33,073 nt of DNA from NCBI GenBank assembly GCA_000310025.1, contig FN649728.1, positions 6,534,993 to 6,568,065 of the forward strand, in the 5' to 3' direction. The translations under genes and the position numbers were made by a program. This document shows positions 580 to 27,745 of this stretch, one piece after another. The stretch's first letter is position 1; the number at the start of each line of letters is the position of its first letter. Source of the stretch: Ectocarpus siliculosus (Eukaryota > Sar > Phaeophyceae > Ectocarpales > Ectocarpaceae). A model generated the notes under the pieces. It ran no database searches. It was not told the DNA's origin and was given only the letters and a program-made list of their open reading frames with translations.

Positions 580-3500
580 GTGTGTACAGAACGCGCGCTA
601 CAGTACAAAACCACTCGAAGAACCACTTCTTGATTTTTCAGCTTTTCCAACAAAGAGGGCAGAACGCCTATTTAGCACGAGTCACTTGTTGACTTTTTTT
701 AACTTTGCTCCCGGGAGCTCGTTTCTTGTGTTTCTCTGTGGGGTATGCATAGTATCACGCAACCAAGATCGACCACAAGGTGGGGAAAAACTACGGCCAT
801 ACAGTTTGCTCTTTGTTGTCGACGGAAAAGAAGAAGTAGATAGCGACATTCAGCGAATTATTTCCAGGGAGGGAGTTGACATGACGAGGGCCGCCAAGGC
901 GGCAAGGCAGGCGTGAACTAACGGTGCTAACGGTAGGCTGGTAGGCACTGCGAGCGACGGTAGGTAACATCATGAAAGCGCCGGCGAAGGCCACAGACAG
1001 GACCGCGTTGTTTACGAAAGCTCGATTTCTCCACAACCATGGAGATGATATCGAGACCCTACTCACACACTCACAAGGGAAGGAACCTCTCTCTCTAGAC
1101 GAAGAGCTCTTTTCAACGCCGACGTGTTTTTGTCGGCAGTTGTTGTGGCTGCCCTCTTGGGGGCTGTACGTGGAGCACTCGAGCTTTTAAGAAAATTCGA
1201 CCGCACGCTTACCTGTGAGTTCGCTCGCGCTATCTACGCACGACGGGTGTTGTCGTCGCTCTCAATACCAAGCTACCTTTGGTTCACGCCTACCCTGCTG
1301 CCCTCACGACCCTCTTGACGTCAACTATGTCCTTGTAGTTCGTTGATTGCCGTTGTCTTAACGTTAATAAAACATTCCCATGTCTCCCTAGTACCGATCC
1401 AGCCGACGCGGACACCTTCCGTGATCTCACCAGGCCTACTACTGTACACCCAAACAGAGTGTTATACTGGGGAGTAGTACCAAACGAGCTTCCTGATGGC
1501 GCTAGGATACCAAAGATTGAGCAATCCACGGTATTGACGGCCTTGGGTTCCTTCGTGAGGCGGCGATAGGGTGGAACAGCCCCCAAGTTCGAGGTGGCTG
1601 TAGCCCCGCTACATGCACCGCGGGCGGACAGATTTGTCTCCGTCCATGTTTGTTGTGCAAGGAGAGAGATCCCGAGAAGAGCACGGGGGTATTGGGGGTC
1701 CCCGCCCGCCCCTGCCAGCTAGTGGCACATGGAAGGCCGGCCCGTTTTTGCATCAGTGTTGTGTCCCAAGTGTCAACGGTTCTCGGAACGGATGTATCAA
1801 TGTTACACTTTGATTGCGAACGCATGGATCCTACAGAACGCTTCCGAAGGTATCTAGATATCTGCTATCACTCACAGAATGCCCTGTTTTGGTGTGTGTC
1901 TCTCTCTTGCTTCGTCTGCAACGCAGTGATAGAACGTTGTGGCCACCTTCCGAATCTCCTCCTCCTTCTTACTTCCGAAGAAAAAATAAACGATTTCGAA
2001 CAAGACAAGAAGCTGCTCCCACCAATTGGTGTCAACCACTAACGAAAAGACATAGTGTTGAGCGACGAAAGGCTTTCAGGTTCAACGTCGTGTCGGCTTC
2101 GCCCTCTCGATTCAGGCCATTTTCAAGCGTTTCTCTCTCTCTCTGGCCTGATGGTATTGACGCTGAGAACGCCCAGCACTTGTTTCTTGTTTCTGTTGCG
2201 TTCATTCTGCTCTGACCCCCCGATTGCGGTCGGAACCTCCTCCCCCGCCCTTGGGGGTTCCGCAGGTGGTAGCGGTGGTGGTTGCCGGGGTGATCGGGTC
2301 TAGGTACCTGCTGGTCCAGAACGGCGGTAAACGTGGCCGGGGTGGAGGCCGGAGGTGAGACGGGGACAAGGGATTGGCGGGTAGATTAGGTTACCCCGCA
2401 TCAAGGCTAGATTCGCAACCAAGATCACGTCACGCTTGTGTGTGTCACTGCTTGCCGCATGGGTATTTACTTGTGAGAATCACCACCCCCCCCGCCTGCT
2501 GTTCACCTGATTCCATCTCGCATGGTTGGTTCTAAACTTGAAGAAAAAAAATCTCGCTAGTGTCGTCAGTCATTTTAAAAGATAATTGTTGCGTCTCATT
2601 TTTGAGTATTACCCTAAGGCCCACGCAATGTCTTTCGTAACACATGAAATAGACGACGGAGAGGAGGGGGAGGGGGCGGTGCTGCCCCTAAGTCTCCGCT
2701 AGCGGGGATCGGACAGCCCCGGGTTTCGCCGGAGGTGGCGGCGGCCGACCTGAAGAAGCGGGCGGATAGCCTCAAGAGCGCCAACTTTGACGTGGACCTC
2801 GACCTCTTCGGCGACGCCGGTGAGGGAGGGAATAAGTGTACCTCTGTGTGTTTTATTTACTGTTATTATTAGCGTCGACCGCGCTAGCCGTCTGACCAAT
2901 GAAAAGACGTGAGTCGCAGTGCGGTGGAAAACAGAAGAACCAAAACACTACTGAAAGTCATATACATATGCTTATGTTTGTATTGAAATGGCATCGACCG
3001 CGCTAGCAATGAACAGACGTCAGCACGTCCCATGCGTTCTGTAGTTTTTTTTTTTTATGGACAACGTGGTCTTGTTGTGAGGAGGGAAGACTGGGAGTCC
3101 CCCGGTGTTCTGTCTATTCCTATTCCGTATCCACCACACCCTGTGCTGAATATGCACGTTTACCATCGTGGTGGCAAGTTGTGCCGCATTGATCCTCCGT
3201 TGTCAACAACATCAACAACAACTATCACTGCCACCGCCGCCATCACCACCGACACAATTACCATCGACAACATCTACGATATCTACGACATGTACACGAC
3301 GACATCCACGACATCTACAGTAAGCGACTTGCCGGCTAGACCGCCGCCACCGGCACCTCCGGCGGCGGAACCGTCCCCTTCCCCGGCCGATGCAATGAAG
3401 GGGGTAAGTGTTACTGCTGCTACTACTGCTACTACTGCTACTGCTGCTACTGCTGCTACTGCTGCTGCTGCTGCTACTACTGCTACTGTTGTTGGTCGCG

Positions 3501-6500
3501 CATGAAAGCGTTTTTTTTGTCTTCGTGGGTAGGAGTCTTAGTGAATGCACGGTTTTTTTCGAAGAGTTTTGAACACAGGAATTCCACCCGAAATCCTGTG
3601 ACTAGAGCAGGCTATTTTTAGACCTTTTTTTTTTTACCCTCCTGGGGTGTTTTCCATTTGTAGAGATTATTGTAGAGAGCGTAGGCTTTTATTTGTCAAG
3701 ATCCCCCCCTCCCAACCAAAAGGCGACTAGTGATAGAGACAGGATAAGGGACGATTGGCCATCGGCGATCGGTCCCGTGAGAGCAATGCTCCGTCCTCTG
3801 GAGAGGACGCGTGGTCAATGGTCTATGTACCCGCTAAGGCATGCAATGAAATATCAGTACCCCGTCCCCCTCTCTGGTTTATCGTTGTCCTTGTGAAACG
3901 TATCCTGGCCCGGTGAAAACCCGTCATGTCGCTCCGTCCCGGCATTGTAGGCATGCGACGTCAATGGTCTAACGACTACGGCATGCACGACTATGAGTAC
4001 ACCCCCCTCCCGATTGGCCATCGGTGATCGGTCCTGTGGGAACAATGCTCCGTCCTCGCTCCGTCCTATCGAGGACGCGTGGTCTATGGTCTGTCAGCTA
4101 AGTCATGCAAAGCATAAGATCACCCCCCCCGTCCACGCCCGTCCCGCAGGCCGTGGCGGCGGCGTCTGATTCCGCCGCCGCCGCAGCAGCAGCAGCAGAG
4201 GCGGAAGGCGTAACCGCTGAGGCTGAAAGTGCGGCGGGACCCGCGCCGGTTGAGGCTGTTGCCGCCGCCCCCCCTGCTGGTGAGTGGTCATTTGGCAGGC
4301 ATTGTTGTGGTGGCTTGAGTTTTGCTACTAAATGGATGGTATCAATGCTGCCCGCACCAAGATTCTGTGTTCGACAAATGCATCCTTGAGTTCTACACAA
4401 GCGCGTGGTATACAGCAGTCTGCTGGTGTGGAGGTATGTGGCTTTTGTGTGTGCGTGGTTACCGAGAGCGCCGTAGCTTGCGAACCTGCGAGACAATAAC
4501 TTCGGGCTCAGAAAGACCTTCCGCAGCTGGAGATCTTGACCGTAAGAACAGGTGCTCAATCAAGGAATCCTTGTACTAATGGCTCATGGCTCAGAAAGAC
4601 CTTCCGCAGCTGGAGATCTTGACCGTAAGAACAGGTGCTCAATCAAGGAATCCTTGTACTAATATCATATGAAAAGGTCTTCTGGGTTAGGCGCCCCGAC
4701 ACGCGTTCTCCATTTTTTAGCGCCCCGCGGGGCGTTTGTTGTGATGGAGGCATTTACTCCGTGCTGCTACGGGCACCTACCTCTCTGTCGTTTGGGGGGG
4801 GGGGCGGTGTAACTGTCGTCGGTTCAATTTTGTCGGTTTCGTTGCCAGAGGCTTTTGAGTGGTTGACCGTTCCTGGGCTGGGCACATCTCGTTGTGATTG
4901 CGGCGGACCGATGTAAGAGTAGGAATTTGTCAGCGCCGCACATGCTGATCATCGATAAGGAACACGCTGCTCGGTAGTCCCCCTCCGCTCTATTTTGATC
5001 TCGCTTGAACGATTTGTTCTACGAAATGTCACGCGTAGAACCTGTTGCAGCCGCTCTGCAACAGGCTCTACGTGTCACACTTTGTCGAGCAGGTCGGTCA
5101 AGCGAGATTACATTAGGGGGGGGAGGAGTACGGAGCAATGTGTTCCTTCCCTATTGATCCGGTTTTCCTCCTGCCAACGTGTGCTAAACCCCGCCCATAT
5201 GGCATTTCTCACATTTTATTTTCTTCCCTGAACAATGAAATTCCCAGCAGTTTGTTCTTCTACAGCCTAACCTGCACCTTCACATCAATTCCTTCGACCT
5301 ACTGCACGTAAATGGTACCCCCGTCGTTCACAGCAGTAACCCTCCCTCTTCCCCAAACAATTTCAATTGTACCCCGCAGTTATGACACCTGCCACTCACC
5401 GACACCGCACCTGCCTGCAATAGTATTCCTCTGACCTGTATGTATGTAGTCATTTGTATGCGTACCCCCGTGGATAACCTGTTTCTCGTGATCCCTCTCT
5501 TACCCAAACAATTACCCCGCACTTGCGGCCGAACCGACACCTGCCTACAATGTTATTCCCCCGACCTATCGTCAGTAAATTGTACCCCCGTGGACAACAT
5601 TATTTCTCGTGATCGCTCTCTTCCCCAAACAATTACCCCGCAGTTGCGGCCGAACCGGCACCTGCCGCCGTCGCCGAACCTACTCCCGCGCCGTCCACCT
5701 CCTACTCCATCAAGCCCGAGAAATCTAAGCGCAAGCCCATCCTCAGCCTCTTCAAGCGGGACACGGGGCCGCAGCGGTCCACGACCATGCAGGAAGCCCT
5801 CTCCGCCGAGGTGAGTTAAGGAGGCTGCGATCTAGTTTTATGTTGTTTTTCTGTCGGGAGTATACATCAGATAAAATACTGATATACCTGTTGGAGATAT
5901 AACCACAGTCGAAGAGGATGCGTTGAATGCATTTTTTACATTGAGCATGGGAAAAAAATTCTGGACTCTGTTTTTTCTTTGCTCTATTTTTTGTTGTTGC
6001 TCATCACTGTAAATCAGCGCTCACGGTGTTTCTGCCGGGTAGAAAGGTGCTCCAATCCGTGATGATGGTTAAACCCAAGGGTTCCTCTCCCTCCACCCGT
6101 CTTGCCGTGCTTGCCTACGCGAGAAGAGTACAGCACTCTCGTATTCCCTCAAAAGTGTAAACACGAACTTATGTATGATAGCGCTTTCCATCACGAGGAA
6201 CCGGAAGTGAGAAAGCTCGCTTACGCCGGGATTCGAACCCCTGAGGATTCGAACCCCTGACACTGGCCACTATAAGGTTGCGAGGGTACTGTACCAACTA
6301 GACTTTCCGGGGCGACCGAACGAGGCTTCGGTTATTCTTTCGTCGTCTGTCTTCGCCGTCCTACCTAAATAGACCAACCACGAGAGACCAACTGCCATAC
6401 CGCCACTCTACCGTAGGTGACGTAAGATATCACACCCCTGGATCGATTTTCGCCGCTCCATCACTCCACGACGAAGAGGATGCAACAACCTCAATCGATA

Positions 6501-9500
6501 ATACGTTTTCGGAGAGCTCTCGACAAGACGGTTCCAGCGCCGCTATTTTCCACGCCGCCGCTAGTTTCGCCGGCGAGAAATCAAGCTCTGCAAGTCAGTC
6601 CAGGTGGTGCATCTTGCGTCACCTACGGTAAAAACCACCCAACAGACCGCTCACTGGGTGGAGCTACACCGACGAGCTATACCGACCACAATTTTGTAAA
6701 CTGCAGCAGTAGATCCTACATAACCTTGCTCTAAGCCCTTTGTGTTCGCGTGTGAAAAAATGTGTGTTTTTTTTTATTATTATTAGCGTCGACCTCGCCA
6801 ACCGGCCGACCAGTGAAAAGACGTCAGTCTCCGTGCGGTTGAACGCACGAAATATGCATGCTTTTGTTTTTCTTGAAACACCTAGTGCGACTCCTTCGTG
6901 TGTGCCTGTAAATGTGTGATGCTGTCAGACACCAATTGTGGCTCTAAGCTCTTCATGCGTGTCTGTCAATGTGTGCGTGTTTTTTTTTTTTGTTTGTCAG
7001 TCACCTAATGTGGCCGACTTCCGACGAGGGCTGGCCGCGGTGCTGGCCGAATCTGCACCGAAGGGCGAGTTCGACGTTAAGGAGCCGAGCCTGCTAGCCG
7101 AGGCGACGATCATTCCAGAGGACTTCGAAGGAGAAGCGGTACGTTTTCTCCCTCTTTTCATTTAAGTTCACCCCCACACACGCGCATGGTGGTGTGCTCG
7201 TGCTCGCCTGGTTCGGTGATAACCCGGCATGCTCCGTCCCTGCTTTGCAGGGATGCGAGGTCAATGGTCTGACGACTACGGCACCCCCCCCCTGTTGTTT
7301 TTTTTACATTCTGCGAGGCCACCGTCAAAGGACCCATCGATTCACGCACCGCCTGATGCACCGTAGGCGTGTGGTTGTGTTTTGTGTTTTGTGGTTCTTT
7401 GTACAGGCAATGTCAGCAGAGAAATGGAGACTATTTTCCATACTTGTGGATATATGCATAGGGGCGGAAGGGGGGGGTACTCAGAGCCGTGCATGCCATA
7501 CAATACCGTAGACGACACAAGATAACACAGCCCGGTGATAACATTCTGGGCTTTAAAAATATATCGGGCGTGGTATCCTGTGGGGGGTGTGTTATCTTGT
7601 GTAGCCCGGGTGATAAAGTGCAGCTCGCACGGGCCCCTAAGGGGGTGTGATAAACCAGGGTGTGCGATTGCACGTCCGAACACGCACAGGGTGTGTTTTT
7701 GGGGTGTGATAAATGAGGGTTTGATAGAAACGGGGTGTGATAGCACGTCCGAATACCCACAAGTGGGGGTGTGATAATGAGGATGTGTGAAAAAAATTGG
7801 GGGTGTAATAACACTGCTTGTAGAGTTGAACCGGTGCTGCCGCACACTTGAAGGGGTGTGGTGTTGCGGGGGTGTGTGATAGCAATGCCTGTACGAACAC
7901 TTCATGACTTGCGGTTCTGCGGAATGTTGTAAAAACAAAAGCTCAGCGGAGGAGACAAAACTCCTGAGCATACTACCTCGGTGGCCACAGAGTGCGTCGA
8001 CCGTCCTGCCCCCTCACACAAAAAGTAGCTGCTGCATACCTTGCTATTGGGTACGACCAAAAGAGAGTTACGCAGATGTTGCGTGTGTGTGCGATGCCCG
8101 CATGCCCACGGGGCAGATGCTGTATCACCACGGTGATACAAGGAGGGGCCTCGTGAATGTATGCGGCGTAACGTCAAGGGGTGTGTTATCTTATGTAGCC
8201 CTGATGATAAATCGATGGTTTGTCAGAAACGCCCAAAATTGTCACCGGGGCGTCGTATTCTGTGGGCGGTGTGGTTTCTTGTGTGGTTGTGTTATCTTGT
8301 GTCGTCTACGGTAGTCGTTAGACTAATTACCTTCTGCTGTTTACCATGGTAGTTGCCATTGGGGAGATGTAAGGCTAATACATGTTTTTCTTGTGTATTT
8401 TTCGAACGTGTTTCTTTGCTTCGGCCCGGGCGCAGGGCGCTAAGGCTGCGGCTGCCAGCAGGATGTCCGCCCTCAAGGAGCTCATGGAGACCGCCGGGCT
8501 TTCTCTGGAACAGGGCGCAGAGGTCGTCGCCGACGTCGTAAACGCCATGGTCGTCAAGTGAGCTTGCTTATTGGCGCTAGGAATAGGGTGCAGGTGTCAA
8601 TGAATCCTCGTTGCATCATTTCGGTAGGGACCCGGTGTCAATGGGTCCACGTTAAGCGCTACCCGTAGTGGGAGAAGCTATTCACCGTGAACAAGCAGTC
8701 TCAAAAAGTTCTGTGCTGCCTGTGGTGAAACGAAAGCTTTTGGCCACAAAGCAGTCATCGATAGCTCAACAGCTCTACTCTGTAAGCTTTAGCTGGTAGT
8801 TTGGTCGAAAATAGACGGAAGACAGGCGCGAAACCCACAGTAAAATCTAGTGAAGTCTGCACCACGTCAAACCGTAATTTGACAGCAATAAAACAGGCCC
8901 ATTTTTTTCATGTCCACGTGAGTTCAAGGCTGATGGCAGTAGATACGTGCAGTGGCAAACAGCGTGTGTGTGTGTAGCCGTTCAAGTTTGCGGGCAGGCG
9001 CATAGGCAGGTGGGCCATCGATTTTCAGGAAAGGTCGATTGCTCCACAGCCCATAGGATAACCAGACCGACACGTGCAAGGAAAGAACTCTCTCTCTCTC
9101 TCTCTCGACGACAGATAGATCTTTCCGAAACCACGCCTTTCGTTTCGGATCAAGAAAATGACAGCCAGTCTCCTCGTTGCGGAGACTTTTTTTGTTTTGT
9201 TTTAGTCTCTTGATTACGGAGACATGGAGCTCAAAATAGTGGATGGCACACCTGACTCGCCCCGTGCTTTTCTACGGCACGTCCCTGTGTGCAACGGCAG
9301 GGAGCGCGTTCATGAATTTTTCGTGGTGCTGTCTCTCTCCCGTGCAACTCTCCTCATTTTTTTTTTTTTTTTTACAGGCTGACAGACGCGGCAGTGAGTC
9401 CCCCCATTTTTTTCGTTTTTTTCGACAGGCAGACAGACGCAGCGGTGAGCAGCAAAGTACGGCACAGCAATATCCCCCCGCGCCCTTACGGCACGTCGCT

Positions 9501-12500
9501 GTGAACATGTTCGTGATTGTTTGTTGGTCCCGTGTCTCCCGTGCAACTCTCCTGGTTTCGTTTTCTTTCGTCAGGCTGACAGACGCAGCAGTGAGCAGCA
9601 AGGGCGTCGATAGCACGGCAGCAGCCTCGAATGCTCTTCTCAACTACATGGACGGTACGCCCGTTATCCTTGCGTGCCTTTTTTTTTGAGCGGATCACAA
9701 CACAATGTAAACCCATCTCTCTCCGTTAATAAGGGTCTTATTTTGCATTTTGTTCGACCGCTTTTCGTTCTGCTTGTAGCTCGGGTTGTGTATGGTACCT
9801 TTTTCTATGTTTGTCCTAGCATGTTACGGGCGTTTTTTTTTTTTTGTACAGGAGCGCAACCCTCGCCAATAGGGAAATCGGATACACCGATAACCCCTCC
9901 CCCCACTGGTTGAGACCCCCCTCTCCGCTAGTGTTAATCGCAGTGCTTACCCTAAGGTTGTTGTTGTTATTTTCGTTGTTTTCGATTATATTGTTTGGTG
10001 TTGCTGTTGGTGGTAACTTTGTTGTTGACATCATCATTATCTCGACATTGTAATGGTGATGGTAACGGTGCTGTTGCGGCTGTTGACGTCGATGATACTG
10101 TTGTTGATGATCATCATAGCTCACACTGTGGCTTTGTTGTTGCTGTTGCTGTTGATTGTCGATGCTAATGTTCTTGACGACTTGATGGCCATACTCACAG
10201 TTGTTGTTGCTGCTGTTGCTGCTGCTGCTGCTGCCGCGTCTGCCATCTTGGCCCTCAGAGGCGGGAGCCCTGTTCGTTGCCCTGTGTCCCGGCATCGCCC
10301 TCGACCCCCAGATCAAGTACAACGGCACCTATAAGAGAGGGAAGCTCGAGAAAGTGTTCGAGGCGGCAGCTAAGAATACCCTCAAGTCCATGGGGGACGA
10401 AGGCCAGATGATGTCTTTGGACCGACTACAGGTGGGGGGGGGGGGGGGGGGGGGGGGACCATTTTTTTGTTGGCGTAATTTTTTTTCCCATGGACCACCC
10501 CCCCTTTTCNNNNNNNNNNNNNNNNNNNNNNNNNNNNNNNNNNNNNNNNNNNNNNNNNNNNNNNNNNNNNNNNNNNNNNNNNNNNNNNNNNNNNNNNNNN
10601 NNNNNNNNNNNNNNNNNNNNNNNNNNNNNNNNNNNNNNNNNNNNNNNNNNNNNNNNNNNNNNNNNNNNNNNNNNNNNNNNNNNNNNNNNNNNNNNNNNNN
10701 NNNNNNNNNNNNNNNNNNNNNNNNNNNNNNNNNNNNNNNNNNNNNNNNNNNNNNNNNNNNNNNNNNNNNNNNNNNNNNNNNNNNNNNNNNNNNNNNNNNN
10801 NNNNNNNNNNNNNNNNNNNNNNNNNNNNNNNNNNNNNNNNNNNNNNNNNNNNNNNNNNNNNNNNNNNNNNNNNNNNNNNNNNNNNNNNNNNNNNNNNNNN
10901 NNNNNNNNNNNNNNNNNNNNNNNNNNNNNNNNNNNNNNNNNNNNNNNNNNNNNNNNNNNNNNNNNNNNNNNNNNNNNNNNNNNNNNNNNNNNNNNNNNNN
11001 NNNNNNNNNNNNNNNNNNNNNNNNNNNNNNNNNNNNNNNNNNNNNNNNNNNNNNNNNNNNNNNNNNNNNNNNNNNNNNNNNNNNNNNNNNNNNNNNNNNN
11101 NNNNNNNNNNNNNNNNNNAACTGCCTCGAGGAAGCTTGACCATTTTAACACAACGTGGTACGATCATCCCCCGTTGCGCGGAGTGAGGTTTCTCCACCCC
11201 GCACAACATGATCTACTCGACCACCATTATGGTTACCGCCAAAAAAAAAAAACGAGGTAAAAAAAAAAACGGTAACCTGGTTGCCGAGTTCACGAAGTGA
11301 ATTGGCTTGTTTTACAACGTCGTTGCCAAGCGACGAAAACCCAATCCCGATGGCAAACACCGAGTGGGGGGCTTGTTTTACAACGTCGTTGCCAAGCGAC
11401 GAAAACCCAAACCCCGATGGCAAACACCGGGGGGGGCGGCTTGTTTTATAACGTCGTTGCCAAGCGACGAAAACCCAACCCCGATGGCAAACACCGGGGG
11501 GGGGGGACCTCGCCTTCCTACAAATTCCGTTTGTGCGGGGGTACTCATGTAAACGGGTGCCGTAGTCGTTAGACCGTTAACCTCGCATCCCTGCAAAGCC
11601 GGGACGAAGCCATATGCCGGGTTTTCGCGGGCCCAGGGGTGGGGTACTCATGTTAACGGGTGCCGTAGTCGTTAGACCATTGATCTCGCATCCCTACAAA
11701 GGCCTGTTTGCGGGGGGTACTCATGTACACGCATGCCGTAGTCGTTAGACCGCTGATCTCGCATCCCTACAAAGGGCTGTTTGTGGGGGGTACTAATGAA
11801 ACGGATGCCGTAGTCGTTAGACCGTTAACCTCGCATCCCTGCAAAGCCGGGACGAAGCCATATGCCGGGTTTTCGCGGGCCCAGGGGTGGGGTACTCATG
11901 TTAACGGGTGCCGTAGTCGTTAGACCATTGATCTCGCATCCCTACAAAGGCCTGTTTGTGGGGGATACTGACGTAAACGGATGCCATAGTTGTTAGACCG
12001 TTAACCTCGCATCCCTGCAAAGCCGGGACGGGGCGATATGCCAGGTTTTTACCGAACCAGTCTGGCACATCGCCAAGCGCGAAGCGCCGTGAGGTATTTG
12101 GCGAGTCGCATAGAGGCATCGCATGCGGGCTTATCAGAAACTGTGATGGCGACAGGCGTAGAGTTTTGCCGAAGATATGGTTTGTTTGTTTTGTGTTTTC
12201 TGGTGTTGTCTTTTTCCCTTCGGTGATTTCCCCATTTTGGGGGGGTGCCGTGGTGGACACTTGGACACGCGTGTTTTGTGTTGATTGTGAGTGTGCGGGT
12301 GTTTTTGTTTTCCGTATATTCGCAGGACCTGTGTTCGATCAACAAGGTTTCGTTTTGAAATGCGTGTGTGTGTTTTTTATGGTGTGTTCCTAGTATGACC
12401 CAACGAATCCATCTCAATCTAAAATCGAGTCTCATGTAGATTAGCAATGAATCCATATCGTCAGCGACGGCTACCCGTATTTCCACGATGTCCCGAGCAG

Positions 12501-15500
12501 CACACAGCGATTTTTGTGTTTGTTTTTTTATTTTCGCAGGACCTGTGTTCGATCAAGAGTTGTATTGAATTTTGATTTTGTGTTCCCGGTCCTTTCTGTT
12601 TTTTCTGTTGTTGTATTTTCGCAGGACCTGTTTTCGATCAAGAAGTCCAAGGCGGACAGCATCACCCAGAAGATCATGATGGACCTCATGATGAAGATGA
12701 TGTCGGAGGTAAACGCTTGGATTTTTTAAAGAAAAAAATTGGTTTCGTGTGGCTTTTTTAAAGTACAGGGATGGTCCTACCCGATATACCATACCCCCGC
12801 GTAGTAACAAGCAAAAAGAACCGCGGTATACCGTGACACCGCACTATTAAGAGTTGGGGAATATATAGCTTTTAGTATGGTGTTCAAAGCCAGTGAAAAG
12901 CGGTTTTTACTGCGGTGTATCGGGACCTCCACTGCTCGGGACCGCGGTACGGTACGGTATGTCGGGACCACAACTGTTTCTGATAAAAAGCTGACGTCAT
13001 CGTGCACGCCGTTGTTGTTGCGCGACCTGCTAGTAAAGCTGCATTCGAGGACAAGCTTGATAATCGTGCTGTACAGTAGTGCTTCAAGTGTCCACGCGCT
13101 AAAACTACCCGCCCCGCCCCACCAGTTGTGTTTCCCCCCGCTCCTCTGTCGTTATCATCAATTAGTTTTCATCGGTGGTGTCACATTTGTTTTCTTTGGC
13201 CTGCGCTCGAAATCGTGCGACCTTGACTCCCCCCAAGTACATGAAGTACGAAGAATTTAACAAGGAGGAATGAAGAAGACGAAGAATTTAACAAGAAGAA
13301 ATAAACAGGGTCGAAAAACTATCGAAGAAATAGAGTGTCAGCTCAAGCAGTTGTTCCTCGGCCTGGACTGTCGTGATGAGTTCATTCAACACATACCTTC
13401 CGACGGGGTATTATTGGTATCTCTCGGACGGATAGACGTATCTTTATGTGTGTGTATGTGGTACTTTATATCTCGTTTTTTTCCCCCCTCAGTACTTTTC
13501 TTTCTCTTTGGTCTGCAGGGAGAGGTGGTGAAGGCGGTAGCGTTTGGTGTATACATATGTGCAAGAAGATGTGGAAAGTGCTACTCTCTAGAGAGAAATC
13601 CCTCCCCCCTTTTTTTTTCCCCCTCGTCCTATTCTTGCTCTCTTTGGTCTCTGCAGGGACGGGGTGCAGGCTCCGTTTGGTGTATATGAACATACGGAGA
13701 CTGTCGTTCTCTGGGGAGAAAGTACCCGTTTTTTTTTTCCCCTCGTTCAATTTTTTTTTTCTCTTTCTCTTTGGTCGCTTTGGTCTTTTTTGCAGGGAGG
13801 CGGTGAAGACGGCGACGCGGAGGGTCTCGAGAAGATGATGGAGGCAATGGGCGGGATGGAAGGGATGGGAGGGATGCCCGGGATGGGGGGCATGGGGGCG
13901 GGCCGAAGCCCGGAAGACCACAAGAAAGAGGTGGAGGCCCTCAAGCAGGTGAGCTTGCATGCACACCCCGGAGGGGGGAGAAATTCCAAGAGTTGCGAGG
14001 AATCGCTGAAAAATCCGACCCATTCCGGGAGCGTTGGCAGCCTTTGGGCCTTCGCAGTCGACGACGGTATTGCACACGTTGTACACAAACAATACCACTG
14101 TAGTTACGGACCAGAGCCTAGTGTAGGCGCATGCGCACGCACGATAGCAAGTGTACGTCCAAGCGTGCCCCTCCCTCCACCCCATGCTCTCTGTAAGGGG
14201 GTGACGGCCATTCGTAGAAATGGGTCCCCCCCCCCCTGCTCCGTCTCGAAAGGGACGCGTGGTCAATGGTCAAATGACTACGGCAAGCAACAAATGAGTA
14301 CGCCCCCCCCCCCTGGATAGAGTGCGCAAAATGTCCAATAGGGAAAAGCACGAGCTGAGAGTGGGGCCGTGGAACGTGTGCGGGTTCGCAAGGAGTGAGC
14401 ACAAGCGGTTGGAAATAGTGGACCAAGTAGAACAGAGCGATCTAGATGTAGTGGGGATTCACGAGACGTGGGAACTGAAGGATGGGGACGTGGTAAGCAA
14501 CTAGGGAAATACCGGTGGGTAGGGAAGGCAAGAAAGGGCTTACACCCCAAGAAAAGGGGGGAGGGGGGAGACGGATTCCTGGTCAAGGAACACTTGTTTG
14601 ACGTGGTGCAAGTAGAGGTGAAAACGGAGTTCGAGGAAAGCCTATGGCTTAAGATACCGGGGGAGCGGGGTGAGAAAGACTTGTTTCTAGGGAACGTATA
14701 CGTCCCACCGTCATCGAAGAAAGTCGCAAGCAAGGCGCAGGAGAACTTCGGACAAATTGGAGAAGATGTCCAGAGGTTCAGTAGGAAGGGAGAAGTTGTC
14801 ATGGTGGGCGATTTCAACTCCAGAGTAGGGAAAGCTTCCAGTAGAGGGCAGGCGATCGGGCAGCACGGAGAAGACAAAGTGAATGACAACGGAGTGAGGA
14901 TGCTTGAATTCTTGGGAAGCAACGAGCTGATGGTTTTGAACGGTAGGAGGGAATGCGATAAGCCGGAGTTCACCAGGCAAAGGGCCAGTTTGCAATGAAT
15001 ACTCGATCCTCGACTACATCCTGGTAGATAGGGGGAGCACACATATCTCAGAGCTGCACGTAAGTGCGATAGATATAGGTTCGACCGACCACTTCCTCGT
15101 ATGGGCAAACATCGACCGATCTAGAAAGACGGAGATTAAGAAACAGAGGAAAGTGTTCCGGTGGAAAGTAGAGCGTTTGGGAGACGAGGGGACAGAGGAT
15201 GAATTCCAGAAGGGACTGGCTGGTAGTGCAGAACCCTTCAGGAAACTGCTGAGAAGCGTCGAAGACGGACAGGTAGACGTACAAGCAGCAGGGGACAGGG
15301 TGATTGAAGGGTGGGAGTCCATAGTGTGCGGCTTAGAGGGTAGTGGGAAAGAAGGTGGTACGATGTGGGGTATCGGTTAAGTGGTGGGATGACGAGCGAA
15401 AAGAAGAAATAGGGAAACGTAGAGAAGTCTTCAAGCAGTACCTGAGTGAGGGGTCTGAGGAGAGTCGGGAAAAGTACAGGACCAAGAGGAAACAGGTGAA

Positions 15501-18500
15501 GAGACTAGTGAAAAAGAAGAAAAAGTGCATTTGGGACGAAGTAGTGCAGAAGGTCAACGGAGGCCTGGAGGGGAACGCCAAGCGGATATGGGAAGGGATT
15601 AGTGGGATGGTAAAATAGACCGCGCAAGAGGGGGGGATACAGGGGTAGCAAATTTGCGAGGTGTGAGCGGTGGACTAGTCAGCAGTGGGAAGGGAAAAAG
15701 GGAAGTTCTAGCAGGACACTACAAGAGACTTGGAGTGCCTTCGGAGAATGAAGATTTTGACCAAGTGTTTAAGAAGGAGGTGGACGCATGGGCCCAGAAA
15801 GAAGAAGAGATTTCGAAGGCAGACGTTGGGAACGTAGAACTAGAAAAGGAGTCCACTGAGGACGAGGTTGAGGCGTGTGTGAACAAGCTGCAGTGCCACA
15901 AAGCAGAAAGGGGCGGATGGGATAGTCAACGAGTTCATGAAGTTTGGGGGGAAGGGGATGATCCGGTTGATGGTACTGTTGTACAACTGGGTGTGGAAAA
16001 ACGAGTATGCGCCAAGTAGATGGAGGGAAGGAGTGGTTGTGAACTTGTTTAAGAAAGGAGACAAGACTGACCCAGGAAATACCAGGGGTATCACACTGTT
16101 GAACACAGTAGGGAAGGTGTTTTGTACGCTGCTGAACGATAGGATAGTGGGAGTATTGGAGAAGGAACGTAGCATTAGTGAGGGCCAGGCAGGTTTCCGA
16201 CAGACGAGGGGGTGCGTAGACCACGCATTCACGGTAGGGAGAATCATCCAAGGTAGAAAGAGGGCGGGAAAGCCGACGTACTGCTTCTTCCTGGACGTGA
16301 AAAAAGCATACGATACCGTATGGAGAAATGGGCTGTGGAAACAATTGTCCAAGTACGTGATCAAGGGGAAAATGTGGAGAGTGCTCAAGAAGATGACATA
16401 GTGTACGAAAAGCGCGGTCATGCTAGACGGAGAACTGTCTAAATTCTTCGACATTGAGCAGGGGGTCCCACAAGGTTGCAAGCTGTCCCCAACATTGTTC
16501 CAGGCGTTCATCAATGATCTGTTGGAAGTCGTAGAGGCAGTCCGGAAGGGCGTAAAAGTAGGGGACACGGAAATTTCGGTGTCAGGAATGCTGTTTGCGG
16601 ATGATTTTGTTGGTATGTCGGACACCCCTGAGGGACTGCAACTACAAATTGACGCGGCGAAGAAGTTTACTGATAAATGGAGATTGTTTGCCAACGTTAC
16701 GAAGAGTGCCGTCATGGTAAGCAACGAGTTCAGGGAGGAACCAGTAGAACATAGATGGAAGTGGGGGATCGAGGAGATTGCAGCAGTGGACCAGTACACA
16801 TACCTCGGAGTAGAGATCGCAAAAGACTGCCCGTGGAATGCACACATGTCCAAGGTAGCGGAAAAGGGCAAATCACGAGCAGGGAAGCTGCACCCAATAC
16901 TCGCAAACCGGCACCTCGATACACGCATCAACTTGGCGGTTTTGAAAAGCGTAATCGTACCGCCGCTAGAGTACGCCGGAGAAGTATGGGAAGGAAATAA
17001 GAAGGTAGTGAAATAAATCGAGGCGGCGCAGATGAAAGCAGCGAAAATCATCCTAGGATGCTCCAAGCGCACAAGTAATGCAGCCGTCAGGGCAGAATTG
17101 GGGATCCAATCCCTGCGGTCGGGAAGAGACGCAAGGAAGCTGACATGGCAGTATCGCATGTGCGGGATGGGAGAGGAGAGGTTGCCGAGAATAGTATTGG
17201 AGGCGAAGTGGGCAAACAAAAAGAGGGGTAGACAACCCACGGAATGGGTCAAGGTTGTAGAGGACGTATGGAAGGGGTTAGACATCGACGAAGATGAAAC
17301 GCTGGAAACGGAGGGTCCACAGGGGTTCAAGGAGAAGATATCTGTTACTTGTGCCGAGAGGGAACAGAATCTACGGGAAAAAACCAAGGATAAGGAGGGT
17401 CTAGAAGTGTACGGAATGTTGAAAGAAGAAATAGGGTTCAAGGATTACCTACATGGACCAATGGATGCAGGGACCAAAGCTTAAGGTCAAATTCAGGACC
17501 GGGGACATAGGCCTTCGAGAACGTCGACGAAGACATAGGACGGTAGACGACGAAGATGACAAGTTCAAATGGGATTGCGGCTTCGAATGCGAAGACCGTG
17601 TTCATGTAGTCGCGGGATGTCCTTGGTACGAAGAGGAGAGGGAAGTGTACATGACTGAGCTGGAAAAATACAAGGGACGTACAGGGAGATGATTGAGGCA
17701 TGGAATAGAGAGGAGAGGACGGTAGCTGTACTGGGGAGTAGGAAGTGGTTTGAAAAGGCGGGAAAGGATATCGTTAGGATAGACAGACTAGGGAAGACAT
17801 TTTTGAGCCACCTTTGGCAAAGTAGGAAGGAACGATTGGCCATCGGTGATCGATCCTGTGGGAACAATGCTCCGTCCTCTCGAGGACGCGTGGTCAATGG
17901 TCTAACCGCTAAGGCATGCAAAACACAAGAGTACCCCCCCCCCCCCCGGGTCGGCGAAAACGCGGCATATCCCGGCATTGTAGGGATGTGAGGTCAACGG
18001 CCTAACAACTACGGCATGCGTTTTACATGAGTACCGTTTCTGTCTTTGATCCGAAGGGTAGTTTAGCCTCCCCCATGCTGCCCCCTCACGGGGTCCCAGT
18101 TCATGGCAGATAGAAGTGTTTTGTGTTTTCAACGGCGCTAAGACTGACGTCTTTTCATTGGTCAGCCGGTTAGCGCGGTCGATGCTAATAATAAAAAAAA
18201 AACACACACACACCCCACCGCTTGATTTTGTGGCTTGCACTTGGGAATGGAAGCCGACTGGCCTTCTCACGGCCGTTTTGTGATATTTATGCATACGGCG
18301 TTTCACTTTTACGTTTCGCCTTCTCTTGGTGTCTTGATGTCGCGACGCTACTGGTGATGTCACGGCGCTCTTCTTGCATTGGTAGTCCCTTTCGCTGTTG
18401 TGCGCTTGACGTTGGCGTCTCGGGGTTGTTTTGCTCGTTTGCCGTCTGTTTGCATGTTTTTTCGTTCAACATTTCCCCAGATGCTTGACTGCTACGCCGG

Positions 18501-21635: not shown

Positions 21636-21639
21636 GTTG

Positions 21640-22120
21640 TGCAAGGTATACCTTTCTTGGAGGGTGCGCGTTGTTTACAAGTCGGATAGGGGGCAGGTTG
21701 CCGATAGTAGTGCAAGGTGTACCCTTTCTTGGTGGTTGGTGCGCTGCTGACAAGCCGGATAGGGGTCAAGCTGTCGATGGCGGTGCAAGGAATACCATTT
21801 CTTGTGGTTGGTGCACTGCTTGCAAGCTGGACAGCGGGCAGGCTGCCGGTGGCAGCGCAAGGTGTACCCTCTCTGGGAGGTTGGCGCACCATGCACAAGT
21901 CGGTTAGGGGGGAGGTTGCCTATGGTATGACAAGGTGTACCCCTTCTTGCAGGTTGGCGCGCTTCGCACAAGCCGGTTGGGGGGCAGGTTGCCGGTAGTA
22001 GTAGTGCAAGGTGTACCCTTTCTTGCAGGTTGACGCGTTGCGCACAAGCCGGTAAGGGTGCAGGTTGCCGATAGTATTGCAATGGGTACCCTCTCTTGAG
22101 AGGTTGCGCACGATGCAGCC
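21640..22120. repeat. About 73-bp minisatellite, seven copies
   Basis: Units begin GCAAGGTGTACCCTTTCTTG and contain ACAAGCCGGNTAGGGG and CAGGTTGCCG. Starts are at about 21638, 21712, 21785, 21857, 21930, 22006 and 22079 (periods 72-76). The period is mostly not a multiple of three, so the minus-strand open frames with repeated PxxxGTPC motifs are by-products. Confidence 0.85.
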
Positions 22121-27337: not shown

Positions 27338-27745
27338 TCCAGGAGGTCTGACCTCCGGTTGTGACTGCCTCCCAACCTGTAACATCGGTGCTTTCACAAC
27401 CAGGAGGTCTGGCCTAAGGTTGTGGCTGCCCCCCAACCTGTGTGATCGGTGCTTGCACATCTAAGAGGTATGGCCTAACGTTGTGGCGGCCTCCCAACCT
27501 GTGTCATTGGTGCTTTCACAACCAGGAGGTCTGGCCGAAGGTTGTGGCTCCCCCCCAACCTGTGTCATCGGTGCTTTCACATCTAAGAGGTATGGCCTAA
27601 GGTTGTGGCGGCCTCCCAACCTGTGTGACCGGTGCTTGCACAACCAAGAGGTGTGGCCTAACGTTGTGGCTGCCTCCCAACCTTCCGGATTCGCGCTTGT
27701 ACAACCAAGACATCTGGCCAAGGTTGAGGCCTCCTCCCAATTCCC
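27338..27745. repeat. 61-bp satellite with alternating monomers
   Basis: Seven units carry CTCCCAACCTGTG, GGTGCTT and GGCCTAAGGTTGTGG; CAACC anchors are at 27373, 27434, 27495, 27556, 27617, 27678 and 27738 (61, 61, 61, 61, 61 and 60 bp). Variant ACAACCAGGAGGTCT alternates with ACATCTAAGAGGTAT over the first four units, giving a 122-bp dimer. The non-triplet period argues against coding. Confidence 0.88.

Follow-up and report, generated by a model that had tools for sequence, protein, structure and literature searches.

Upstream copies of 3′ splice sites in the introns of an Ectocarpus siliculosus gene: a probable outcome of recurrent local tandem duplication

In NAGNAG tandem alternative acceptors, several AGs are available for one exon. 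The same is true of a gene of the brown alga Ectocarpus siliculosus that is found in the stretch of DNA analyzed here, hereafter the window (33,073 nucleotides (nt) of assembly GCA_000310025.1, contig FN649728.1, positions 6,534,993 to 6,568,065 of the forward strand). In contrast to NAGNAG sites, it is the whole acceptor that is copied in this gene, with its pyrimidine tract and a stub of the following exon, and the copies that carry an AG are located 72–299 nt 5′ of the real exon starts. These copies form arrays, which probably reflect tandem duplications that recur locally in large introns and are tolerated across the 3′ splice site since the exon stays intact in the last copy.

Tandem duplication has been described as a source of introns and splice sites at novel intron positions in Drosophila (PMC2891723), wherein a short tandem duplication likewise copies splice signals and makes alternative boundaries. 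There, the duplicated piece is exonic and a new intron is created, whereas the Ectocarpus arrays span an existing acceptor and only lengthen the intron. Direct repeats have also been described at intron/exon borders (PMC11782384); as outlined in that source, the two ends of one intron are compared and insertion is inferred, while both copies are at the 3′ end in the arrays described here. The tandem exon arrays of brown algal ROCO genes, as outlined in PMC11378527, likewise arose in intron-rich genes of this lineage by duplicating exonic sequence locally, with the distinction that whole exons are duplicated and expressed in ROCO genes and only exon stubs are copied here. No description of acceptor arrays that recur across the introns of a single gene was found among the literature matches listed, a weak negative that rests on partial coverage (titles and abstract openings).

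Acceptor copies in the window gene

The introns upstream of exons 6, 9, 11, and 12 contain tandem copies of a unit made up of the pyrimidine tract, the AG, and the first ~17–25 nt of the exon. The arrays, a weaker one before exon 7, and a repeat that interrupts one of them are located as follows, with positions counted from the first nucleotide of the window:

5260..5643, + strand: exon 6 array, with copies at 5260 (without AG, degenerate), 5380 (AG), and 5523 (AC), and the real exon at 5644
6878..7000, + strand: exon 7 array, weak, with copies at 6878 (AA, degenerate) and 6929 (AG), and the real exon at 7001
9378..9574, + strand: exon 9 array, with copies at 9378 and 9429, each with AG; spacing 51 and 146
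12326..12624, + strand: exon 11 array, with copies at 12326 and 12540, each with AG; spacing 214 and 85
12387..12511, + strand: unnamed dispersed repeat of ~125 base pairs (bp) within the first spacer of the exon 11 array, found by a genome search with the long spacer
13519..13795, + strand: exon 12 array, with copies at 13519 and 13657, each with AG; spacing 138 and 139

The quality of the copies was assessed by comparing the first 20 nt of each exon with its own upstream intron in ungapped alignments (11 introns of the gene compared). The best matches are 19/20 for exon 6, 19/20 and 18/20 for exon 9, and 18/20 twice for exon 11; the exon 12 copies match at 14/20 and 13/20 positions and improve when gaps are allowed. 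The copies of the exon 6, 9, and 11 starts that match at 18–19/20 positions are preceded by a pyrimidine-rich stretch and then AG, or AC in the copy at 5523. By eye, the sequence 3′ of both exon 12 stubs begins GTTTGGTGTATA.

The copies keep the same order and strand, and the spacers between them are homologous, at exons 6, 9, 11, and 12, and more weakly so at exon 7. Spacings in the exon 6 array are 120, 143, and 121. Gapped alignments (5380/5644, 5523/5644, 9378/9575, 12326/12540, and 13519/13796) extend ~111–133 bp 5′ of the border for exons 6 and 9, and the alignment of the 9378 copy to the real exon 9 border spans −133 to +21. Homologous spacers are what tandem duplication requires and consequently support this reading. 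The unequal spacings of the exon 11 array raised the suspicion of an insertion, and the dispersed repeat was then found in the long spacer. This repeat occurs in at least 39 other genomic places at 81–89% identity (40 of 767 first-look candidates were scored). Setting it aside leaves spacings of 89 and 85 and lets both units align, indicating a tandem array that took up a dispersed repeat. A run of N (10511–11118) lies 5′ of this array in the same intron, intron 10.

The exon 7 copies are harder to judge. The listed copy matches 11/20 positions ungapped, against a best match per intron of 12–15 for foreign exon starts, so the stub alone (11/18 ungapped, 13/18 gapped) is at chance level. The exon 7 units also have a 25-nt spacer stretch in common, which is equalled by 0/300 plain and 1/1000 dinucleotide shuffles, and exon 7 is probably, though not certainly, a fifth array.

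Gapped local alignment of border probes, with swapped introns as the null and a 0.1% threshold, gives a similar picture. An acceptor probe (−60..+40) passes in 6/13 introns of the gene (before exons 6, 7, 9, 10, 11, and 12), and a stricter exon-start probe (−6..+40) passes in four of the 13 (exons 6, 9, 11, and 12). Exon 10 was not counted as an array, as its match adjoins TGC/TTG triplet repeats. A mobile element or introner as the source of the arrays finds no support, as pairwise comparison of the five arrays (blastn, word 7, low-complexity filter on) revealed no match, and hence no sequence common to any two of them, at E 0.01. The initial annotation of this DNA had described tandem 3′ splice site copies in five introns, a description that holds for exons 6, 9, 11, and 12 and is weaker, but probable, for exon 7; all eight of its AG positions are correct, and the copies at 5523, 5260, and 6878 are added here. 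Intron 5 also contains a perfect 83-bp tandem duplication (4505–4663) away from any exon border, which appears to have arisen recently in the same way.

Local duplications in other genes of the genome

In place of a full-genome count, introns were sampled from genes for chaperonin, myosin, dynein, and kinesin in this genome. These introns were located by exon-wise matches to the Pfam families PF00118, PF00063, PF00225, PF12774, and PF08393, and their borders were called, without transcripts, from frame, profile continuity, and GT/AG context. Three batches contributed 63/69, 119/140, and 16/20 introns, for a total of 198, of which 189 are at least 160 nt long. The sample includes 49/56 kinesin intron stretches, with at least 2/138 kinesin rows left out (lone or non-contiguous matches), and covers part of the genomic places of myosin and chaperonin. 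The median intron length is 406 nt for the first 182 sampled introns; an autosomal median of 524 nt and an intronic share of ~46% of the genome are given for Ectocarpus (PMC12477816).

Copies of exon starts are commoner than chance in this sample, as the exon-start probe passes in 5/189 introns where 0.15 are expected, and two of these five are clear multi-copy arrays. The acceptor probe also passes in 5/189 (0.20 expected), with one of the matches (L001) purely intronic. Matches of at least 16 positions between the first 20 exon nt and the exon's own intron were found in 3/182 introns (0.07 expected from swapped introns), and between the last 20 exon nt and the intron in 1/182 (0.04 expected). 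Similar excesses are seen elsewhere, with the donor probe passing in 8/189 (0.15 expected), the exon-end probe in 2/189 (0.18 expected), and mid-intron probes in 6/109 in each direction (0.10 expected), while duplicated 20-mers cover 1.6% of the first 20 exon nt versus 2.3% of mid-intron sequence (182 introns). As the donor and mid-intron rates are as high as the acceptor rate, duplication in the sample is not aimed at acceptors. The counts depend in part on the run at the 0.1% null: successive runs gave 4/174, 3/174, and 5/189 for the acceptor, 8 in every run for the donor, and 5/102, 1/102, and 6/109 for mid-intron probes. Early ungapped windows (acceptor border 2–3/51, donor 1/57, mid-intron 17–51/1949) were too thin. 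Consequently, the proposal of the initial annotation that a duplication mechanism recurs at 3′ splice sites survives as to recurrent local duplication and fails as to targeting of the 3′ site. The finding that would have refuted that annotation by its own terms, copies no commoner than chance, did not appear in this sample.

Individual loci reveal the same layout at different stages. One myosin intron (L013) has two upstream copies, the nearer of which matches ~45 nt into the exon, so the similar stub length that had been noted for the window gene is not general. A second myosin gene (L023) contains three-copy arrays at two introns, before the exons starting at 5097 and 3774; in the latter array, which stands outside the unbiased count, the copies are at 3439 and 3571 and both have GCTG in place of GCAG. 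Single, more decayed copies of exon starts are found at L070, L085, L120, and L138, and those in L085 and L138 leave out the border. A mirror image on the donor side is found at L132, where the final 37 exon nt, together with the 60 intron nt that follow them, occur a second time deeper in the intron, and the last 20 exon nt are repeated at L005. A chaperonin intron (L008, 2950–3370 on the gene strand), likewise outside the unbiased count, is made up by eye of about four diverged ~100-bp units that end near the acceptor, and has the appearance of an older such array.

Explanations for the arrays

The observations that bear on the origin of the arrays are the copies themselves, their homologous spacers, some decay, the similar copies found in other genes, the absence of any preference for acceptors across the sample, and the donor-side mirrors. 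These are consistent with a process in which large introns would gather short local tandem duplications with a copy spacing of about 50–230 bp. When a duplicated unit crosses the 3′ splice site, the downstream copy would keep the whole exon, and the upstream copy would turn intronic, carrying a spare tract, AG, and stub; further rounds would then give arrays of three or more copies. As the downstream exon stays whole, a duplication that spans the acceptor, like its donor-side mirror, need not break the protein. We infer that the last copy serves as the normal acceptor and that the spare acceptors are tolerated through exon definition, wherein recognition would take in the exon as a unit, with its whole body, its enhancers, and its donor, all of which are missing from a 20-nt stub. 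Copies with long stubs, or those that outcompete the true site, would be eliminated, and the arrays would decay by substitution, indels (insertions or deletions), and insertion. The window gene would have gathered four or five such arrays, and appears to represent an ordinary mutational process at an unusually high density. With near-identical acceptors upstream, recognition of the true site would have to rest on more than the local acceptor. For Ectocarpus, PMC4476162 describes extensive use of exonic splice motifs similar to human enhancers, together with a low rate of detectable alternative splicing, and discusses decoy sites as the reason for such motifs.

Several results weigh against local duplication as the whole explanation. 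Acceptor strength was scored with a weight matrix built from the 198 real acceptors of the sample, and 7/11 window copies equal or exceed the real acceptor in strength, versus 2.5 (plain, P 0.0016) or 3.0 (T-biased, P 0.006) expected from mutation at the stub divergence, with the present real site taken as ancestor and growth of T runs modelled solely by T-biased substitution. These figures are inflated because the copies were first picked by tract and AG, and growth of T runs together with this way of picking could explain part of the strength. The gene also differs from the sample in its number of arrays: the acceptor probe passes in 6/13 introns (one beside triplet repeats) versus 5/189 (Fisher 7.7e-6), the exon-start probe passes in 4/13 versus 5/189 (Fisher 0.0011), and the donor and exon-end probes of the gene pass in just 1/13 and 0/13. 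The window gene is thus a clear outlier in array density, with p values that are post hoc because the gene was chosen for this feature. Gene-level mutability finds no support, as clustering of duplications within the same gene is not significant in the sample (3 pairs vs 2.2 expected, p = 0.36). Finally, copies that include exon sequence number five on the acceptor side and two on the donor side of the 189 introns, too few to judge.

Copy strength is also the reason for which a functional explanation, akin to the selection for decoy or alternative acceptors that the initial annotation offered as its other possibility, is retained, as an unlikely one. The extra acceptors would work by competing with the true site and diverting transcripts to frameshifted or truncated, unproductive mRNA, so as to set or regulate output, and several of them would be kept by selection. 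In line with this, all six copies of the exon 9, 11, and 12 arrays equal or exceed the real acceptor of their own intron in score and fall in the 70th–90th percentile of the 198 real sites. Moreover, an in-frame stop would be introduced by 7/8 modelled copies with AG, while the copy at 6929 would add 72 nt and preserve the frame, so that the product would be mostly unproductive if the copies were used, and the low donor-probe count of the gene also fits. Some signs of decay point the other way. Retention of the AG is no better than neutral (8/11 versus 6.7 expected, P 0.28). The AG has been lost from 3/11 window copies and from both upstream copies of the second L023 array; stubs differ from the real exon start at 1–10 of 18 bases, yet 7/11 copies retain full strength. 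The exon 12 stubs in particular are poorly kept (8/18 and 12/18 ungapped), a dispersed repeat sits inside the exon 11 array, and none of the six copies scored in other genes is as strong as its real acceptor. A more elaborate form, for which the likelihood is somewhat lower again, is that the competing tandem acceptors of four or five introns would jointly damp output, each of these introns diverting part of the transcripts, such that productive output would be the product of several leaks; the set would be maintained as local duplication and conversion renew the copies.

A mechanism that specifically duplicates 3′ splice sites (e.g., by priming within pyrimidine tracts during slippage or repair, or by coupling to splicing) appears improbable. 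The five-to-two ratio of exon-including copies would favor it, as would the sense to antisense ratios of acceptor-like pairs in 173 kilobases (kb), which are 6:1 at a match of at least 13/18 and 3:1 at 15/18. These differences are small, however, and the first 20 kb of the window contain five sense pairs (one in a satellite) versus three antisense pairs. The whole-probe counts for acceptor, donor, and mid-intron given above also speak against such a process, as do the exon copies of L085 and L138 that leave out the border. It is very improbable that the stubs are mini-exons of 16–21 nt with their own donors that give alternative exons: by eye, GTGAGT follows the 9378 stub and GTGAGC the 9429 stub, but no close GTRAG donor follows the stubs of exon 6, the second stub of exon 11, or the second stub of exon 12, and GTGAGC is found inside the real exon 9 as well. 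An assembly artefact is hardly credible, even though the assembly contains N gaps, one of them in intron 10, since the stubs have diverged from the real exon starts and one spacer has its own repeat; unrelated loci also have the same layout.

The host gene and the meaning of the arrays

The host gene is located on the + strand, with 14 recognized exons between 364 and 19868 and a joined frame of 1707 nt that is open to the final stop; the gene may extend 5′ beyond the window. The exons of the gene model are the following, each with an open frame and the last with the terminal stop:

364–579, + strand: exon 1
2266–2326, + strand: exon 2
2703–2819, + strand: exon 3
3321–3403, + strand: exon 4
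4150–4279, + strand: exon 5
5644–5810, + strand: exon 6, real copy
7001–7138, + strand: exon 7, real copy
8436–8557, + strand: exon 8
9575–9654, + strand: exon 9, real copy
10259–10431, + strand: exon 10
12625–12708, + strand: exon 11, real copy
13796–13948, + strand: exon 12, real copy
18752–18811, + strand: exon 13
19746–19868, + strand: exon 14, terminal stop

The first 12 exons matched no Pfam family, and no second copy of the gene was found when they were used as a query against the assembly (189.5 megabases, 492 contigs). All 14 exons matched no chain in the PDB, and a scan of the window against Rfam at gathering scores gave no match.

Other repeated sequence is found within and beside the gene. 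Intron 12 (4.8 kb) contains an open frame (14399–14995), probably a long interspersed nuclear element (LINE), with a match below the Pfam cut-off to the endonuclease-reverse transcriptase family PF14529 (E 0.0005). A motif, TTATTATTAGCGTCGACC...GACGT, and its reverse complement are common to 2868–2930, 6780–6825, and 18150–18200 of the window (by eye), and probably represent the ends of a transposon family. Minisatellite arrays are located 3′ of the gene, with 73-bp units at 21639–22106 and 61-bp units at 27339–27740.

If the upstream sites were used, several introns would together make up a dosage device, a kind of system for which no name was found in the literature searched. Under the probable explanation, recurrent local tandem duplication, the arrays show one way in which Ectocarpus introns grow. 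They also offer natural graded tests of how a eukaryote with large introns chooses among near-identical acceptors 50–300 nt apart.

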